Assembly: GCA_022071965.1 (NCBI GenBank)
Contig: JAJVIQ010000020.1
Coordinates: forward strand, 62,001-126,000
Source: Gammaproteobacteria bacterium
GTDB lineage: Bacteria; Pseudomonadota; Gammaproteobacteria; JAJPIJ01
Length of the DNA stretch: 64,000 bases
Reading direction: 5' to 3'
How positions within the stretch are numbered: position 1 is the stretch's first letter; the number at the start of each line of letters is the position of its first letter. Both the position numbers and the translations under genes were made by a program. Positions 42,650 through 53,700 of this stretch are shown here, piece by piece. The notes under the pieces were generated by a model. The model was not told the origin of the DNA. It did no database searches and saw only the letters and a program-made list of their open reading frames with translations.

Positions 42650-43087
42650 TCAGGCGCTCAAATGAGTGCGCGCAAGCCCCGCGAGCACCCGCTCCAGATT
42701 GCGCACGAGGGCAACCTGAAAGAACGGTTTCTCGAGGAAGTCCACCGCGCCACCGCGCATCGCGCTCACGCTGGCGGCGACGTCGCCCTGGCATCCGATA
42801 ATCACCACCGGCAGGCCCGGGGCTACCTCGTGCGCCTGCAGCATCAACTCGACCCCGCTGGCATCGCTCAATTCCATGTCCGTCACCAACATTGCCGGAA
42901 CGACGCCTCGCAGCCTGTCCAGAAGTGCACGCGAACCGGTGAACGCCTCCGTACGGCAACCGTGCTGATTGATGAGCGCGCGCAATGCCGCGCCCATCTC
43001 CGCGTCACGCCCCGCGACGAAGACGAGCGGCGACACCGCCGAGCCGGCGGCGCCGTCGTCAGGCAGCTTGTCACAGGTCAATAGCAT
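42650..43087 (-). CDS. Stand-alone, degenerate receiver domain (FixT-like?)
   Basis: 145 residues, one receiver domain without output. The candidate phospho-acceptor D70 (VTDMELSD) and the lysine K120 (LEKPF) remain. The acidic pocket is reduced (VAGRDAE instead of VVDDDE) and the conserved Thr/Ser is lost (PVVIIGCQGD, with Gly where FixJ has Thr). Closest in pattern to FixJ receivers. Its ATG abuts the FNR-type stop codon (TGAATG), so it is translated with that gene. Three cysteines (C5, C44, C99). By position it could be a FixT-like inhibitor of FixL; inference only. Confidence 0.8.
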   Translation of the reverse strand: MLLTCDKLPDDGAAGSAVSPLVFVAGRDAEMGAALRALINQHGCRTEAFTGSRALLDRLRGVVPAMLVTDMELSDASGVELMLQAHEVAPGLPVVIIGCQGDVAASVSAMRGGAVDFLEKPFFQVALVRNLERVLAGLARTHLSA

Positions 43088-43843
43088 TCACCCGTTCGCA
43101 GTCAGGAGAGGCTTGCCACTCGCGCGTGCCACGGCACGCAGGCGCTCGAGAGAGGGGATGCGGATGCTGCGCCGGTCCACCTCCAGCAGTCCTTCATGCT
43201 GGAAGTTCGTGAACAGACGGCTCACGGTCTCCACGGCGAGCGCGAGGTAGCTCGCGATATCCTGCCGTGCCATCGGCAGGTTGAAGGCCACGGCCGAGTA
43301 GCCCAGATGCGCATACGCCTCCGACATCTGCAGCAGGAAGGCGGCCAGCCGCTCGTCGGCTCCGCGTTGCGCCAGCAGGACCGCCCGCGCGTGCTCCTTG
43401 GTGATCTCCCGCCCGGCATGCTTGAGTATCTGGGCATACAGCGCCGGATCGTGGTGGGCCGCATCGTCGATGACATCCAGCGGGAAGCGGCATACCGTAA
43501 TCATCTCCATCGCCTGGGTCGAGCTCGTGTGGGTCCCCTCGCCCAGTGCGTCGACACCGATGAGATCGCCGGGGAGATGAAACCGGATCACCTGTTCCAG
43601 GCCGTCTGGCGTGGAGACGTAGCTCTTCGCCGAGCCGGAGCGGACGATGTACAGGGCCTGCAGCCGCTCGCCCTGGCGAAAGAGGTGGTGGCCCCGCGGC
43701 GACGGCCTGCCGCACTTGATGCCGGTTTCCCCCACGCAATGCGACGCCACCGTGTTCATGATGCAGAGACGCTGCAGGCGGCAGTCTGCACATCGCAGCG
43801 CCGCCTGGCCGAATCTCACTACGTTGGATTCCTGCGTTTGCAT
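43088..43843 (-). CDS. FNR/FixK-type oxygen-responsive regulator
   Basis: 251 residues of the Crp-Fnr family. The N-terminal C18-x2-C21-x5-C27 and C118 (ITVCRFPLDVIDD) correspond to the four [4Fe-4S] ligands of E. coli FNR, so it should sense oxygen directly. Extra cysteines are C36 and C44. The C-terminal HTH has the FNR recognition helix E205-T-V-S208-R209, predicting TTGAT-N4-ATCAA sites. A GGAGGG Shine-Dalgarno precedes the ATG, and a FixJ-like site lies about 100 bp upstream. Confidence 0.93.
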   Translation of the reverse strand: MQTQESNVVRFGQAALRCADCRLQRLCIMNTVASHCVGETGIKCGRPSPRGHHLFRQGERLQALYIVRSGSAKSYVSTPDGLEQVIRFHLPGDLIGVDALGEGTHTSSTQAMEMITVCRFPLDVIDDAAHHDPALYAQILKHAGREITKEHARAVLLAQRGADERLAAFLLQMSEAYAHLGYSAVAFNLPMARQDIASYLALAVETVSRLFTNFQHEGLLEVDRRSIRIPSLERLRAVARASGKPLLTANG

Positions 43844-44614: not shown

Positions 44615-44992
44615 CTACCGATAACCCTGTTCGCCGTGCCTGGCGTCGACGGCCTTGCCGAGCGAGAGCGACATCATCAGCAGCGCGATACGCTCGTGCA
44701 TGATGAGTGTGTGCCGGTTGCCGCTCTTCATCATGTGCTGGCGCAGCGCCTCGCGCACGGCACCGGAGCCGGTGACGTCGATGATGATGTCGATCTTTTC
44801 TCCCTCATCAGCCAATTTCATGAAATCGGAGGTGACCGCTATCCCGTTCTCGCGTGCCAGTCGTACTCCAGGGAGATCGAGGTTCAGGTCGGCGACGCCC
44901 GCCAGCTCGACGAACGGCGCGGCGATCAGTTGCTTCAACAGCGGCGTGCCGGTTTCACCGGCACCTATTACTGCAATGCGAAACGTTGTCAT
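44615..44992 (-). CDS. Small Rossmann-fold protein, unknown function
   Basis: 125 residues. The start FRIAVIGAGETGTPLLKQL is a typical NAD(P)-binding motif of homoserine-dehydrogenase-like or aspartate-dehydrogenase-like folds. The chain ends after about one Rossmann domain, so the catalytic domain is missing. ATG at 44992 chosen; the frame is open upstream but not protein-like. It lies 143 bp downstream of fixJ on the same strand. It could be a nucleotide-binding sensor; the function is not known. Confidence 0.65.
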   Translation of the reverse strand: MTTFRIAVIGAGETGTPLLKQLIAAPFVELAGVADLNLDLPGVRLARENGIAVTSDFMKLADEGEKIDIIIDVTGSGAVREALRQHMMKSGNRHTLIMHERIALLMMSLSLGKAVDARHGEQGYR

Positions 44993-45135
44993 GGGCGCGA
45001 TCTCCAGCCGGGGAATGGGCATGCTCCGGGACATGCCCGACGGTTCTAGCGAGAAGCATGCCAGCCAGGAGCACCCGATCATGGTGCCCCCGCACCTCGC
45101 GGGCAGTCAGGAATCCGCCCCCGCGCCCTCCCGTC

Positions 45136-45744
45136 TCATTTGAGCCCGAGGTTCGCCGCCACCAGTTCGGCGAGCGAGCGCACCTCCATCTTCTCCATGA
45201 CATGCGCGCGATGCAGCTCCACGGTGCGCTCGCTCAGCCCGAGCTCGATCGCGATGACCTTGTTGGCCTGACCGGCGACCACCCGCTCCATGATCTCGCG
45301 TTCGCGCGGCGTGAGCCTGTCGCGGCGTTCACGCAGGGACTGCTGCTCCACATCGGAATTGCGCCGCGCGATGTCTTCGCCGAGTGCCGCCTGCACGCGA
45401 TCGAGCAGATCCTGATCGTTGAACGGTTTCTGCAGAAAATCGAAGGCCCCCTTCTTGATGGCGCGCACCGCCATCGGCACGTCCCCGTGGCCGGTGATGA
45501 AAATGACCGGAAGGCGCATCCCCTTCGCGCACATCTGCTCGAAGAGCTGCAGGCCGCTCATGCCGGGCATGCGGATGTCCAGCAGCACGCACCCTCCCTG
45601 CGCGCCCGAGACTTCGGCCAGGAACGCCGCCGCCGAGGGGAACAGGGCGGACTTCAGGCCGACTGAGTTCAGCAGCATGCGCAGCGAGCCGCGAACGGCA
45701 TCGTCGTCGTCGACGACGAAAACGGTCTGTTCGGATTCACTCAT
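45136..45744 (-). CDS. fixJ: Response regulator FixJ
   Basis: 202 residues. The receiver domain is complete: VVDDDD acidic pocket, phospho-acceptor D56 (LLDIRMPG), T in FITGHGDV, and K in LQKPF. The output is a LuxR-type HTH (LTPREREIMERVVAGQANKVIAIELGLS). Pairs with the FixL kinase, whose stop codon overlaps its ATG by 8 bp. Confidence 0.94.
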   Translation of the reverse strand: MSESEQTVFVVDDDDAVRGSLRMLLNSVGLKSALFPSAAAFLAEVSGAQGGCVLLDIRMPGMSGLQLFEQMCAKGMRLPVIFITGHGDVPMAVRAIKKGAFDFLQKPFNDQDLLDRVQAALGEDIARRNSDVEQQSLRERRDRLTPREREIMERVVAGQANKVIAIELGLSERTVELHRAHVMEKMEVRSLAELVAANLGLK

Positions 45745-47290
45745 GTTCGACGGGTTGTGCGACCGGCAGCGAGACGTGGAATTCCGCGCCGCCACCCTCG
45801 TGTTCGCTGTACCAGGTTCGGCCGCCGAAGGCGGCCACGATGCTGCCGCTGATCGACAGGCCCAGGCCAATGCCGTGCGCCTTGGTGGTGAAAAAGGGCG
45901 CGAACAGACGCTCCACATCTCCGGGGCTGACGCCCGGGCCGCGATCGGTCACCGAAAATTCTATCGCCGCACCCGGACCGCGCGCCGACCGGATCGCGAT
46001 GACGCGCTCCCCCGGCGGCACCTCGGCCATCGCGTCGACCGCGTTGCGGATGAAATTCAGCGCGACCTGCTGAAGCTGCACGGCGTCGGCCTGCACCGGC
46101 GGCAGATCCGGGGCGAGCGCGAGCTCCACGCGCGTGTAGTGATGCCGGAGATCGACGTCGGCAAACCGGATCACCGCGCGCAGCTGCTCGTTGATGTCGA
46201 CCAGCTCGCTGCGGATTTCCTCGCGGCGCATGAACCCCCGCAACCGCTGGATGATGTCGCCTGCCCTCTCCGCCTGGCGCGCTATCTGCTCGAGGGCCTC
46301 CTCGAAATCCTGCGCTCCCTGTGCGCCGCGGGCGAGCATGCGGCGCGCGGCCTGGGCGTAGGTGGCGATGGCCGTCAGAGGCTGGGTGATTTCGTGCGCG
46401 ATGCCCGAGGCCATCTCGCCCATGGTCGACAGCCGCCCGACATGCGCCAGCCGGTCGCGCTGCTCGCGGACCTGCTGTTCCATCATCAACTCCGAGGAAC
46501 GATCCAGCACCTGGGCGACGAACAGGGGCTGCCCGTCCTGTACCGTATAACTGCAATGCAGGCTGCACGGGGTGAGGCCGCCGTCCGGCCTGCGTATGCG
46601 GACATCCTGTGTGTCGGGCTGGCTCGCGCGCTGCGCCGCCTGCCTCATCTCATCGACGATGCCGCGATCCTCGGCCGCCACGAGGTCGGCGAAGTGCATG
46701 CCGAGGAGAACCCCCTGCGCGCGGCCGCAAAGCCGGCAGAACTCGGGATTGACGGTACGTATGCGGCAGAGCCCGTCGGCCATGAAAATGCCGGCCGGCG
46801 CATTGTCGATGATCAGGCGCAATTCGGCCTCGCGCGCGCGGATGGCGGCCTCGGCGTTCTTGCGCCACGAAATATCACGCACGATACCGACGAACTGCAT
46901 GCGTTCGCCGCGCGCCTCGCCGATGGCGATGTCCAGCGGGAAGACGGTTCCGTCCTTGCGCAGGCCCTGCGCCTCACGGCCGATCCCGATGATCCTGGGC
47001 ACGCCCGTGCGCAGGTAGTTCCTCAGGTACCGATCGTGCTCGCCCTGCCAGGGCTCCGGCATCAGCATCTTGACGTTTCGGCCGATGACCTCCGCGGCGC
47101 GATAGCCGAAGATGCGCTCGGCCGCGGGGTTGAACACCTCGATGCGGCCCCATTGATCGATGATGATCAGTCCGTCGACCATCGCGTTCAGCGCCGCCTC
47201 GAACCGCGCCCGATAGCCACCGGGATCCTGCTGCGTAGTGCCGGCCGGTGTGCCTTCGGGAGGCGCGCCCGGCATGGGAACATGGTCCAT
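45737..47290 (-). CDS. fixL: Oxygen-sensing histidine kinase FixL
   Basis: 517 residues. PAS-1 (about 27-140) is the heme-binding type: proximal histidine H85 in GEHDRYLRNYL and the oxygen-gating arginine R105 in IIGIGRE, followed by RKDGTVFPLD, as in rhizobial FixL. A second PAS (about 150-265) follows. HisKA has H299 (GIAHEITQPL) and the ATPase domain has N, G1 and G2 boxes (FIRNAVDAM, DRGPGV, GLGLSIS). No membrane segment, so a soluble sensor. ATG at 47290 chosen. Confidence 0.94.
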   Translation of the reverse strand: MDHVPMPGAPPEGTPAGTTQQDPGGYRARFEAALNAMVDGLIIIDQWGRIEVFNPAAERIFGYRAAEVIGRNVKMLMPEPWQGEHDRYLRNYLRTGVPRIIGIGREAQGLRKDGTVFPLDIAIGEARGERMQFVGIVRDISWRKNAEAAIRAREAELRLIIDNAPAGIFMADGLCRIRTVNPEFCRLCGRAQGVLLGMHFADLVAAEDRGIVDEMRQAAQRASQPDTQDVRIRRPDGGLTPCSLHCSYTVQDGQPLFVAQVLDRSSELMMEQQVREQRDRLAHVGRLSTMGEMASGIAHEITQPLTAIATYAQAARRMLARGAQGAQDFEEALEQIARQAERAGDIIQRLRGFMRREEIRSELVDINEQLRAVIRFADVDLRHHYTRVELALAPDLPPVQADAVQLQQVALNFIRNAVDAMAEVPPGERVIAIRSARGPGAAIEFSVTDRGPGVSPGDVERLFAPFFTTKAHGIGLGLSISGSIVAAFGGRTWYSEHEGGGAEFHVSLPVAQPVEHE

Positions 47291-47601
47291 GGCGCATATT
47301 GTCGTTAATCTGCGCGCCATACTCCACTACCCGGGCCCCGCATATGGGCATCGCCCTGCTGCCGGTGCGCCGCGCCTGGCGCACCGCAGGCTTCGGGCTT
47401 CCGTGGGGCTGGATGCCCTGCGGCCTGGTCTGCCGCGCCCTGGGCCACGCCGCCGCATCCGGCCACCGGCACGACGGGGCGCTGTACATGCTTGTCTTCG
47501 GGGCCGGCACGCTGCCGGCGATGAGCAGTCCTGCACGCGGGCAAGTCCCATCGCCGCCAGCGCGTCCGGGCGTCCCGCCACGACAGAGGCCTGGAGGTTG
47601 T
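47291..47601. other. Non-coding stretch, 311 bp, with gene remnant
   Basis: Between fixL and ccoS. The plus strand carries a fragment of a TauE/SafE-type gene (listed separately). The rest holds nothing recognised. The fixL promoter must lie here or within the remnant. Confidence 0.5.
47344..47529 (+). pseudogene. Remnant of a TauE/SafE-family membrane protein gene
   Basis: About 60 codons read LLPVRRAWRTAGFGLPWGWM, PCGLV, then GALYMLVFGAGTLPAM. This is the conserved core of the sulfite-exporter-like protein that often follows ccoS in cbb3 clusters. The frame is not protein-like before LLPV and after GTLPAM, so both ends are lost. It lies on the strand opposite ccoIS, so the fragment is also inverted relative to the usual order. 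Confidence 0.65.
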
Positions 47602-47781: not shown

Positions 47782-50280
47782 TCACCGCGGCTCGGCAACG
47801 CTGCGCAGGCGCAGCGCGTTGCCCAGCACGAACAGCGAACTCAATGACATGCCGGCGGCGGCGATGAGCGGGTTGACCAGGCCGAGCACCGCCGCCGGCA
47901 ACCCAGTCACGTTGTAGAACAGCGCCCACCACAGGTTCCCGCGGATGATCCGGCAGGTCTTGCGCGCGTGCTCCACGGCCAGGAGCACGCCGCGCAGATC
48001 GCCCCGCAGCAGCACCATGTCGGCGCTGCTGTGCGCCAGGGCGGCACCGCCGCCCATGGCGATCGAGACCTGGGCGCCGGCCAGCACCGGGGCATCGTTC
48101 ACGCCATCCCCGATCATCATCACCACGGCGCCGCCACGCTGCAACTCACGCACGGCCTGCAGCTTCGCCTCCGGGTTCATGCCGGCACGCCGGTCCTCGA
48201 TCCCGACGGCGTCGGCGACCGCCGCCGACACCGGCTGCTGATCGCCGGTCAGCAAAGTCACCCGCAGCCCCCTGGCGCGCAACGCCCGCACGACAGCGGC
48301 GGCCTCCGGCCGGATCTCGTCGAGCAGCGTGTAGGCCGCGACCAGGCGATCCTCGCTCGCGAGCACCACGGTCGTGCCGATCGGCCCCGGCCCCGGCCCC
48401 GACCCCGCCGCCGGGAGCGGTTGCAGGCCGGTGTGCCCGGCGATGAACCGCGGGGAGCCGAGGAACCATCGCCGATCGCCGATCTCCCCGTGGATCCCGG
48501 CACCGGGCTCGCTGATCACGCCGGCGGCGCACGGCACGCACAGCCCCCGCGCCGCCGCGCGGAAGGCGTGCGCGATGGGATGCTCCGAGTGCTGCTCGAG
48601 CGCGGCCGCGAGCGCGAGGCATTCCGCCGCGCCGTGGCTGCCGAGCAGCGCGGTATGCGCCAGGCGCGGGGCTCCGTGCGTGAGCGTGCCGGTCTTGTCG
48701 AAGACGATATGTGTCACGCGCGCCGCCGTCTCGATGGCGGCGCTGCGCACCACCAGCACGCCCCTCGACATCAGCGCATTGATGGCGCAGGTCATCGCCG
48801 CCGGAGCGGCCAGCGACAGCGCGCATGGACAGGTGATGACCAGCACGGCCAGCACGTTCGCGAACCAATGCCCGGTGTGGGCGGCGATGCCGGCGAGCGC
48901 GGTCAGCGCCGCGATGAGCAGCACGGCGCCCACGAACCACCCGGCGATGCGGTCGGCGAGCGCAGTCAGCCGCGGCCGCTCGCCGAGGGCGCGCTCCAGC
49001 GTCGCCACGATGCCCGCGAGCAGCGTGTTCTCGCCGACGCGCGTTACCGTCATCTGCAATGGACTGTCGACGTTGATCGAGCCCCCGATGAGCACGGCGC
49101 CCTCCTCCTTGGGCACCGGCGTACTCTCGCCGGTGAGCAGGGATTCGTTGACGGTCGAAACGCCCTCCGCGACCACGCCGTCGGCGGGGATCTCCTCGCC
49201 CGGGCGAACGAGCAGCCGGTCCCCGGGAACGAGCTCCGCCGGTGCAGCCATCTCCATCGTGCCCCCGGTCGCGGGATTGAATCGGCGCGCCAGCAGCGGC
49301 AGGTGCCGTCCCATGCGCTCCACGGATTCGATGGCCCGCGCCCGCGCCATGAATTCCAGGTACCGCGCCGCGAGCAGGAAGGTCACGAACATCACCACGG
49401 CGTCGAAATACGTCGTACCGCGATCGGCCAACGTGTTCCACGCGCTGCCCACGTAGGCCAGCAGGATCCCGAGGGACACCGACAGGTCCATGTTGAGCGT
49501 GCCGCCGCGCAGTCCGCGCCACGCCGACTGCAGGAAACCCGTGCCGGAGTAGAAAACCACCGGGGTCGTCAGCAGCAGGTTGATGACGTTGAGAAACTGA
49601 CGGTGATCGGCCGCGATGTAGCCGTCGTCAAAATAGAACGCGGTGGCCACCATCATCACCTGCATTCCGAGCACCAGGGCCACGCCCAATCTGCGCAGCA
49701 GCGTGCGACGTTCGCGGTCGCTGCCCTGTTGTTGTCGCCGCGGATCGTAGGGTTGCGCACCGTAGCCCAGCCGCTCGATGCCGCGGATGAGGCCGGAGAT
49801 TTCCACGCCGGCGCTGTGCACCACCCGCGCGCGGCGCGTGCTGTAATTGAGCCCCACCTCCAGCACGCCGGGCTGCTGCGCAAGGTAGCGCTCGATGAGC
49901 CACAGGCAGGCCGGGCAGGCCACCTTCTCGATCATGAGCGAGCTCTCCGCGGAGCCGTCGACGCGCTCGCGCGTGAACTGTCTGCGCACGGCGGGATGAT
50001 CCCACGCCGCCAGGCGTTCACGCACGGCCGCCGGCATTTCCTCGACACGGGGCGAGACGACGGTACGGTGCCGGTAGAATTCCGAGAGGCCAGCTCCGAC
50101 GATCAGCGTCGCCGCGGCCTGGCAACCGCGGCAGCACATGGGTTGCCGCTCGCCCTCGATCTCCACCCGCAGGTCCGTGCCGGCAGGCACGGGTTCCCCG
50201 CAGTGGAAACAGGGCGCGTCCGCGCGGGTGGGCATGTCCATGGGCATCGGGGGGGCGATCTCGACGGCAGTGCTCAACAT
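47782..50280 (-). CDS. ccoI: Copper-exporting P-type ATPase CcoI/FixI
   Basis: 832 residues. N-terminal Cys-rich metal site (CFHCG ... CCRGC) and an HMA domain with CPAC (ACPACLWLIE) typical of FixI/CcoI. Membrane copper site CPC in VITCPCALSLA. Actuator TGES, phosphorylation motif DKTGTLTHG and hinge GDGVNDAP are all intact. CcoI supplies copper for cbb3 cytochrome oxidase. The oxidase genes ccoNOP and ccoGH are not in the window. An FNR box lies 350 bp upstream. Confidence 0.94.
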   Translation of the reverse strand: MLSTAVEIAPPMPMDMPTRADAPCFHCGEPVPAGTDLRVEIEGERQPMCCRGCQAAATLIVGAGLSEFYRHRTVVSPRVEEMPAAVRERLAAWDHPAVRRQFTRERVDGSAESSLMIEKVACPACLWLIERYLAQQPGVLEVGLNYSTRRARVVHSAGVEISGLIRGIERLGYGAQPYDPRRQQQGSDRERRTLLRRLGVALVLGMQVMMVATAFYFDDGYIAADHRQFLNVINLLLTTPVVFYSGTGFLQSAWRGLRGGTLNMDLSVSLGILLAYVGSAWNTLADRGTTYFDAVVMFVTFLLAARYLEFMARARAIESVERMGRHLPLLARRFNPATGGTMEMAAPAELVPGDRLLVRPGEEIPADGVVAEGVSTVNESLLTGESTPVPKEEGAVLIGGSINVDSPLQMTVTRVGENTLLAGIVATLERALGERPRLTALADRIAGWFVGAVLLIAALTALAGIAAHTGHWFANVLAVLVITCPCALSLAAPAAMTCAINALMSRGVLVVRSAAIETAARVTHIVFDKTGTLTHGAPRLAHTALLGSHGAAECLALAAALEQHSEHPIAHAFRAAARGLCVPCAAGVISEPGAGIHGEIGDRRWFLGSPRFIAGHTGLQPLPAAGSGPGPGPIGTTVVLASEDRLVAAYTLLDEIRPEAAAVVRALRARGLRVTLLTGDQQPVSAAVADAVGIEDRRAGMNPEAKLQAVRELQRGGAVVMMIGDGVNDAPVLAGAQVSIAMGGGAALAHSSADMVLLRGDLRGVLLAVEHARKTCRIIRGNLWWALFYNVTGLPAAVLGLVNPLIAAAGMSLSSLFVLGNALRLRSVAEPR

Positions 50281-50726
50281 CCTGACTCCCGAGGCTCGAA
50301 TGTCAATTGCCCGTCCCGGTGCCCAGCGGTTTCCCCTGCGCTGACGGTTTTTTGACGTTTGGGGGTGTCGGTGTGCAATTCCACGCCCCCGCGCTCCATA
50401 ATCGCCTTACCTGAGCATCTCGATGGAAGTGCCTGTAGACGGAGTGTTTTTCGACATTCGCGGGCGGACGCGCGAATGGCGGCGCTGACCGGGGGGATCG
50501 GCGCGGCTGGAGCTTTTCTTGCAGTGCGGTTCAAGCCACTCGAGGGCGCCGCGCCGTGCGGCATTAGCAGGGGGCCACACCGAGTTCCACATGAGAAACC
50601 CAGCGCTCATTATCCCGTCCGCCGCCCGATCGGGGTTGATCGGCATCAACGCCATCGGTCGATGAATCCGCGGATCCACCCTCCAGGCACGTTCACTCCG
50701 GAGCCGCATTCGCCACCGACCGTGCG
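50281..50726. other. Divergent intergenic region, 446 bp
   Basis: Between ccoI (minus) and a multi-PAS kinase (plus). It holds the FNR-class-II promoter at 50609-50649, with a long leader of about 320 nt before ccoI. Short minus-strand frames inside this leader show no recognised protein. Confidence 0.5.
50609..50649 (-). promoter_or_regulatory. FNR box with -10 element, directed toward ccoI
   Basis: TTGAT-CGGC-ATCAA (50636-50649) is a perfect FNR/Anr/FixK consensus. On the minus strand GATAAT (50614-50609), a 5 of 6 match to the -10 consensus, is centred 31 bp away, exactly the class II geometry. The expected start is about 50602, giving a long leader before ccoI. Rhizobial fixGHIS is activated by FixK from such boxes, which supports the reading. 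Confidence 0.7.
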
Positions 50727-53700
50727 ATGAACGATCTGACGCCCATCCCGATCCCCCCTGACCCGCCGGCGTCCGACGCGCCGGCAAGTGCCGCGATCGA
50801 TGCCGCAAGATCCGCCGCCCCGCCACCCGGGGGCAACGCCCGCGCCCACCTGCAGGCGGTCGTTGCCGCCGACGGCACCGGCTACGCGGTGATCGATCCG
50901 CGCGCGCGGGTCGTGGAGGCCAACGACGTCTATGCCCACATGGCGGGGTTCGAAGACGCCGCTGCGGTGCTCGGGCGCAGCGTGCTGGAGTGGACGAACG
51001 GCCGCGACGTGCCGCGGACCGTCGAGCAGATCCGCCGCTGCATGGCGGAGGGCAGCGTGCGCGCGATGCTGGTGGAGTATCACGATGCCGGTGGCCGGCG
51101 AGTGCCCGTATCCATCAATGCACAGCGCACCGAGACCGGCGATGGGCCGCGTATCGTTCTGCTGTGCCGTCCGCCGCGGCAGCGACCGAGCGCGGCCGAG
51201 GCGCTGCAGGCCAACCGCGTGCGCATGCGCGAGCAGCAGGCCGCGCTGTCCTGGCTGCTCACCAGCCAGGCCTTTCTCGAGCACGACCTCGGTGAGTTCT
51301 TCCAATTGGTCACGCGCTGCGTGGCCGAGATGCTGGAGGTCGAACGCGTCAACCTCTGGCGGCTGAATCCCGCGCGCACCGTCATGACGCTGGTGAGCGG
51401 CTTCGATCGGCTGAGCGGCACGCACGCCAGCGGCACGGAACTGGACACCGGATCGTACCAGGCCTACTTCCGCGCCCTGGAGAACAACGAGCCGATGCAG
51501 GTCGACAACCTCGGCGAGGACGAGCGCACCAGCGAGCTGTCGGATCTGCACCTGCGCCCGTTCGGCGTCACCGGCCTGCTCGACGTTCCCGTATTCGTCG
51601 ACAACCAGCTCGACGGCGTGCTGTGCCTGGAACAGGTCGGCGAGGACAAGCCCTGGTACCCGGACACCCGCCTGTTCGCCGCGGCGATCACGAACATCGT
51701 CGCGCTCGCCCTGCAGCACCAGGAACGCGCGCGCGCGGAGAATTCGCTGCGACAGAGCGAGGAGCGATACCGCCAGCTCGTGGAGCTGTCGCCGGACGCC
51801 ATCCTCGTGCTGCAGCACGATCGCATCACCTTCGCCAACCCCGCGGCGCTGCAGCTGCTCGGCGCGCGCCGCGCGAGCGAGATCATCGGCGAGGGTCTGT
51901 TCCGCTTCCTGCATCCGCATTACCACGACACGGCGCGCAATCGCCTGCGGCTGACGGCCGAACTGCGGGCCTCGATCCCGTTCGTGGAGGAGAAGTACAT
52001 CCGCCTGGACGGGACCACCGTGGACGTGGAGACGACCTCCGGACCCTACCAGGACGAGCAGGGAGAGGGTCTGCAGGTGATCGTGCGCGACATCACCGCC
52101 CGCAAGCGCACGGAGATGAAACTCGCCAAGAGCGAGCAGCGCCTGGACCTCGCCCTGAAGGCCGCCGACCTGGGCCTCTGGGACTGGAACCTGCAGACCG
52201 GTGATGCGTACTTCGACGATCGCTGGCTGGGTATCGTCGGTTACGCGCGTGAGGAGTTTCCGCCGCACATCAACACCTGGGAGATGATCGTCCATCCCGA
52301 CGATCTGCAGCGGGTCATCGCCGCCACCAGGGCCCATGCCGAGGGGCAGACACCGTACTTCGAGAGCGAACACCGCGTGCTCACGCGCGGCGGCGAATGG
52401 CGCTGGGTGCACGACAAGGGCCGCATCGTCGAGCGCGACGAGGCCGGCCGTCCGCTGCGCGAGACCGGCACCATGCTGGACGTCACGGCGCGCAAGCGGC
52501 AGGAGGAGGCGCTGCGCGCGAGCGAGGCCAAGTTCTCGCGCTTCTTCCAGTCCAACCCGCTGCCGGGCATCATCGCGATCTTCCCCGAAGGACGCGTCAT
52601 CGAGGTCAATCAGGCGTTCCTCCGCGCCACCGGCTACCAGCGCGACGAGGTCATCGGTGTCGCCGCCGCCGATCTGGCCTTGCGCTTCGAGGCCCAGCAG
52701 CGCGATCTGCTCTATCACGCGCTCGAGACGGGTCAGACGCCGTACGCCTTCGAGGCCCGGCTGCAGCTTCAGTCCGGCGAGATGCGCGACGTGCTGGCGA
52801 CCTACGAGCGGGTCGATTTCGGCGGTCAGCGCTGCTTCGTCGGCATGTATTACGACATCACGCATCGCAAGCTCATCGAGGCGGAGATGCGCCGTATCAA
52901 CGAACAGCTCGAACAGCGCGTGGCGGAACGCACCGCGGAGCTCGAATCCAGCAATCGCGCGCTGCGGGCCGCCGAGGGCCGCCAGCGCGTGCTGCTCGAC
53001 GCCATGCCCGACCTGATGTTCCGCATCGACCGCGCCGGCCGCGTGCTCGACTTCTCCGCCCCCCGGGGCGACAGTCTGATCGATCCGGAGAAGCTCATCG
53101 ATCGCAACCTGCGCGACGTCGACCTCGACGCCCCCACCCGGCAGTCGATGCTCACCACCATCGATCGCGCGCTTCACGGCGGCAACATCGAACAGATGGA
53201 ATTCCGCCTCGTCACCCCCGTCGGACCGCGCGAGTACGAGGCGCGGGTCCTCGGGAGCGGGACCGACGAGGTCGTCGCCATCGTGCGTGACATCACGGAG
53301 CGGCGGCACATCGAGCACGCGCTGCGGCTGAGCGAGGCCGGGCTCAGCGCGGCGCAGAGCATCGCCCATCTCGGCAGCTGGGAGCAGGACATCGTCAACC
53401 CCGAATCGATCGAGGCCAACCCGCTGCGATGGTCCGACGAGACCTACCGCATCCTGGGCTATACTCCCGGGGAGGTCGAACCGTCGGTTGCGCGCCTGAT
53501 CAACAGCTTGCACCCCGATGACCGCCAGGCCGTGCGTGAGCTCTGGCGCGCGGCCCTGCGCGACGGCAGGGACTTCGACCACGTCTGCCGGGTGCTCCGC
53601 CCCGACGGCGGGGAACGGATCGTGCATACGCAGTGCGGTATCCTCGGCGGGACGCCTGGCCCAGGGGCAGGCGTGAAGATCCTCGGGGTCATGCAGGACA

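Follow-up and report, generated by a model that had tools for sequence, protein, structure and literature searches.

The 64,000-nucleotide stretch of gammaproteobacterial DNA analysed here, hereafter the window, carries on its minus strand a FixL-FixJ locus whose genes follow one another in the order FixL, FixJ, small NAD-binding-fold protein, FNR-type regulator and single-domain receiver. The FixL oxygen-sensor kinase (45737-47320) combines two PAS domains with HisKA and HATPase domains, and both heme landmarks, the proximal His95 and the distal Arg115, are present. The FixJ response regulator with its LuxR-type output (45136-45744, the start being inferred near 45744) has an intact receiver (D, D, D, T, K) and scores 234 bits against the FixJ model, whose cutoff is 255. 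The FNR-type regulator (43088-43843, with a start inferred from the 251-amino-acid protein of a congener) is 96% identical to its counterpart in that congener and displays a CX2CX5C motif plus a downstream Cys, which is also present in E. coli FNR; its score against the NCBIfam Fnr model, 199 bits, lies under the cutoff of 228. The protein encoded between fixJ and the FNR gene (44615-45082), which forms part of the locus, is 86% identical in the congener, weakly matches the N-terminus of acetaldehyde dehydrogenase and was not seen in either of the other two genomes from the same family; it might have a separate redox-linked role.

The last gene of the series (42650-43087, minus strand) was studied by means of the Pfam Response_reg profile, alignments, AlphaFold2 and dN/dS. 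It encodes a protein of 145 amino acids that matches Response_reg with an E-value of 4.5e-14 and is devoid of an output domain. In an alignment to FixJ, residues D10, D11, D54, T82 and K104 of the latter correspond to G26, R27, D70, G98 and K120, meaning that the pair of metal-binding acids has changed from DD to GR and the Thr to G, while the acceptor D70 and K120 are kept. The sequence-only reading of this DNA, which had described the loss of the Thr and of most of the acidic pocket as well as an ATG placed straight after the FNR stop, was thus accurate on both counts: the junction is TGA-ATG with zero gap, the FNR reading frame ending at 43088, to which the minus-strand location can be added. 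The structure prediction that it had proposed as a check returned a confident (beta/alpha)5 receiver fold (mean pLDDT 87), with the FixJ structures 5xso and 5xt2 among the best fold matches. Being recognised by the Pfam profile, adopting a predicted receiver fold and lacking key phosphotransfer residues, the protein qualifies as a pseudo-receiver and compares with the pseudo-receivers and aspartate-less receivers of the literature, in which the second metal-binding acid, DD2, is the one more often lost (PMC12632262, PMC4395418).

Several observations indicate that this is a maintained gene. The dN/dS value of the receiver relative to the congener (G001, same genus) is 0.16 by YN00 and 0.21 by NG86, near the values for FixJ and FixL, and the congener keeps a receiver that is 85% identical at the amino acid level with an identical stop-start junction. 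A decaying duplicate is ruled out by these low ratios together with the conservation. In two further genomes of the same family, the order FixL-FixJ-FNR-receiver is kept, the receiver being about 33-37% identical and its acceptor Asp itself substituted in both. Within the genome of the window, the 28 other receiver domains examined are all intact ([DE]D-D-[ST]-K), the published share of pseudo-receivers in general being about 6% (PMC12632262), so the degeneration exceeds what chance would give. A scan of named genomes matched only the congener, a metagenome-assembled genome (Gammaproteobacteria bacterium isolate Bin_33), and, weakly, a spirochaete receiver.

The pairing of a degenerate receiver with FixLJ recurs in many gammaproteobacteria. 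In a first survey, 369 genomes of the class and two families were searched with FixL and the loci were then read, yielding single-domain receivers in 23 loci, every one of which is missing a functional DD2 residue. In a reverse survey, the pseudo-receivers served as queries in genomes below the FixL threshold, and the regions found were read likewise; 11 further pseudo-receivers adjoin FixJ, and a FixL-like kinase is present in each case in which the assembled sequence extends far enough, the L166 contig breaking off within fixJ. The exception in the reverse survey is the pseudo-receiver of genome G651 (L160:5801-6322), which sits on a contig apart from its FixLJ, whose own locus (L122) is without a receiver. 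In total, 34 of 35 pseudo-receivers lie at a FixL-FixJ locus, in 33 gammaproteobacterial genomes among those examined. These surveys are a sample, the loci found with receiver queries are biased towards having a receiver, and since related rows are not independent, the counts do not serve as significance tests. The FixL-first survey also revealed eight FixL-FixJ loci of the same type where no receiver could be recognised in the vicinity (L103, L121, L122, L123, L128, L130, L131 and L134). In one genus, the proximal heme His of FixL is replaced by Gln, the distal Arg being kept (L125:1810-3357 and L128:1756-3303), and beside the latter kinase the pseudo-receiver is missing as well.

Across these loci, DD2 is lost in all 35 pseudo-receivers, being replaced by R, A, P, G, S, T, H or Q (the highly divergent L132 shows a profile gap at this position, which was read by eye), and the acceptor position reads D, E, G, S, H or A, whereas every complete neighbouring FixJ receiver reads DDD[TS]K. 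The loss of DD2 throughout and the variable acceptor suggest that what is conserved is a function other than phosphorylation. The retention of D70 and K120 in the lineage of the window would fit a protein that still accepts phosphate on D70, as an ordinary response regulator with a single domain or as a phosphate sink, yet the Thr and the pair of metal-binding acids have gone, sister lineages have E, G, S, H or A at the same place as the Asp, and FixT, the receiver-like protein of the alphaproteobacterial FixLJ circuits, keeps its Asp without being phosphorylated in vitro (PMC7078487); we regard this explanation as extremely unlikely.

The placement of the 34 receivers points to their partner: 17 directly follow fixJ, 16 follow an FNR gene located after fixJ and one follows an FNR gene that is encoded on the other strand. 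One could imagine that the receiver regulates the co-translated FNR protein, in line with the stop-start junction in the window and its congener and the short overlaps in relatives (where several receiver starts overlap FNR and the sequences were trimmed to the domain). Nevertheless, in half of the loci the receiver comes straight after fixJ; FNR is thus not the partner that all of them have in common, and such a role appears very improbable. The constant partner of the pseudo-receivers is FixL-FixJ, and this constancy, combined with phosphorylation not being conserved, favours a phosphorylation-independent brake on FixL. Most of the partner kinases retain the heme His and Arg. At three loci, the FixL-like kinase (L156:6186-7457, L157:2945-4141 and L158:6415-7611) shows no recognisable heme PAS but still stands beside FixJ, an FNR gene and a pseudo-receiver, which suggests that the target is the kinase core or FixJ. 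The pseudo-receivers of these three loci have a His at the acceptor Asp, and the input signal may have been switched in that genus.

Compared with pseudo-receivers at large, the gammaproteobacterial proteins form a distinct subgroup that belongs to a single kinase locus and lacks DD2 in every member found. A close parallel is FixT, to which the sequence-only reading had likened the window protein, and this likeness holds for locus and residues more than for sequence. As in Sinorhizobium meliloti, a single-domain receiver-like protein is encoded in the window with fixLJ and a CRP/FNR-family regulator, and the S. meliloti protein, reading A-A-D-D-K, has likewise lost the DD acids and the Thr and kept the Asp and Lys. 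The order fixL-fixJ-fixT-fixK was confirmed on S. meliloti pSymA, where sister strains carry the FixT annotation for the reading frame between fixJ and fixK (L049:17329-17676), and a relative occupies the same place in S. numidicum. The order is nonetheless different, Sinorhizobium having fixJ-fixT-fixK and the window fixJ-FNR-receiver, and FixK is not an Fe-S FNR, unlike the FNR-type neighbour in the window. Caulobacter crescentus FixT, also a single-domain receiver within a FixLJ circuit, contains a four-cysteine Fe-S motif formed by C53, C56, C59 and C64 (PMC7078487). This C-X2-C-X2-C-X4-C motif is absent from the window receiver, whose cysteines at positions 5, 44 and 99 are isolated, and from all 23 gammaproteobacterial relatives checked, which agrees with the difference in cysteine pattern suspected earlier; Fe-S sensing through a Caulobacter-like motif is thereby ruled out.

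In terms of sequence, the family is no closer to FixT than to other receivers. With hhalign, the window family scores 26 against FixT and 205 against FixJ, a comparison weakened by the small FixT alignment (a profile built on three near-identical sequences), and FixT itself scores 37 against the window family, 44 against FixJ and 41 against other receivers. FixJ is therefore the closest family by profile, the own group aside, and also a fold match, from which the window protein differs by its missing output domain and catalytic residues. A receiver tree (94 rows by 117 columns) was unresolved: 15 gammaproteobacterial pseudo-receivers grouped (88/98) beside FixJ and 8 divergent ones fell elsewhere, and neither a single clade with FixT (p-AU 0.33) nor one origin of the gammaproteobacterial pseudo-receivers (p-AU 0.38) was rejected. 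The identity of the pseudo-receivers to their cognate FixJ, 0.32, equals that to other FixJs (0.32), so that nothing suggests a recent origin from, or co-variation with, the local FixJ. The gammaproteobacterial family occupies a FixT-like place and, by analogy, may work like FixT, although its sequence does not place it in the FixT family and its origin is perhaps a separate one.

Taken together, a disabled receiver found beside the sensor in 33 genomes is probably a built-in brake, like the rhizobial FixT. The window protein can be viewed as a dedicated FixL-FixJ pseudo-receiver that would most likely act as a FixT-like feedback brake on FixL, a reading to which we give slightly better than an even chance. 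The solid part of this reading comprises the gene, the operon layout, the residue losses, the conservation with FixLJ, the purifying selection and the predicted fold. Counting against it, sequence does not join the family to FixT, and there are the eight loci without a recognisable receiver nearby. As for mechanism, the protein would descend from a FixJ-type receiver and be synthesised together with FNR, its synthesis possibly being driven by FixJ or FNR. The loss of DD2 should preclude the usual Mg2+ coordination, such that phosphorylation is not expected, and the pseudo-receiver would bind the FixL kinase core at the docking place of FixJ. Once bound, it could lower FixL autophosphorylation or phosphotransfer, as does FixT, which inhibits FixL autophosphorylation (PMC7078487).

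The best-kept columns of the pseudo-receivers map to alpha4, beta5 and the beta5-alpha5 loop (V91, A93, R95, G97, D100, E103 and P105), and this alpha4-beta5 conservation is equally compatible with an action directed at FixJ as with a brake on FixL. The chief rival of the FixL brake is a decoy of FixJ, in which the pseudo-receiver would pair with FixJ through its alpha4-beta5-alpha5 face and block or modulate active FixJ dimers rather than act on FixL. The profile proximity to FixJ speaks in the same direction; however, the same columns are conserved in FixJ too and are partly structural, the cognate-specific similarity to FixJ is absent, and the known precedent, FixT, targets the kinase (PMC7078487), which makes the decoy doubtful, if worth serious consideration. 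Alternatively, since the sign of action is unreadable from sequence, the protein might act positively on the FixL-FixJ pair or feed in another signal, such as a metabolite or the redox state; S. meliloti FixT requires asnO, a hint of signal integration (PMC7078487). Nevertheless, both FixT proteins that have been studied, which are the only precedents, are inhibitors, and we deem a positive or input role decidedly improbable.

Regarding the FixL brake, which we prefer, the expression control that had been put forward found no backing. The sequence-only reading had compared the receiver with FixT, which is made under FixK control, but the region ahead of the FNR-receiver operon contains no FNR box with up to two mismatches, either in the genome of the window or in the congener. 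The designation "FixK-controlled" is therefore unsupported. Across 14 kb surrounding the locus, there is a single good box, the perfect FNR-type sequence TTGATCGGCATCAA at 50636-50649, in the gap between a gene for a CcoI-type P-type ATPase (47782-50280, minus strand) and a reading frame starting at 50727 on the plus strand.

On a broader scale, it is conceivable, although we would not call it probable, that gammaproteobacterial FixLJ circuits possess their own DD2-less pseudo-receiver brakes, derived from a FixJ-type receiver separately from the alphaproteobacterial FixT and in many lineages translationally coupled to FNR. If so, the same control logic would have evolved twice, and the FNR-coupled lineages would make the brake in step with the downstream regulator. 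The mode of action of bacterial pseudo-receivers has been called a mystery (PMC12632262). The present proteins are numerous, occur naturally with what is probably a single partner pair, vary in their residue losses and include lineages in which the kinase has lost its heme sensor and the receiver was kept; with them a clear question can be asked, namely whether a dead receiver restrains its parent kinase. In the open-access literature searched, work on FixT was found in alphaproteobacteria only, and a paper on Burkholderia FixLJ does not mention FixT. Finally, alphaproteobacterial FixLJ loci also contain single-domain receivers (L110:7725-8156, L111:4407-4844 and L050:8311-8700), which range from intact in Azospirillum to partly degenerate in Phenylobacterium and Rhizorhabdus and possibly represent a series of stages.
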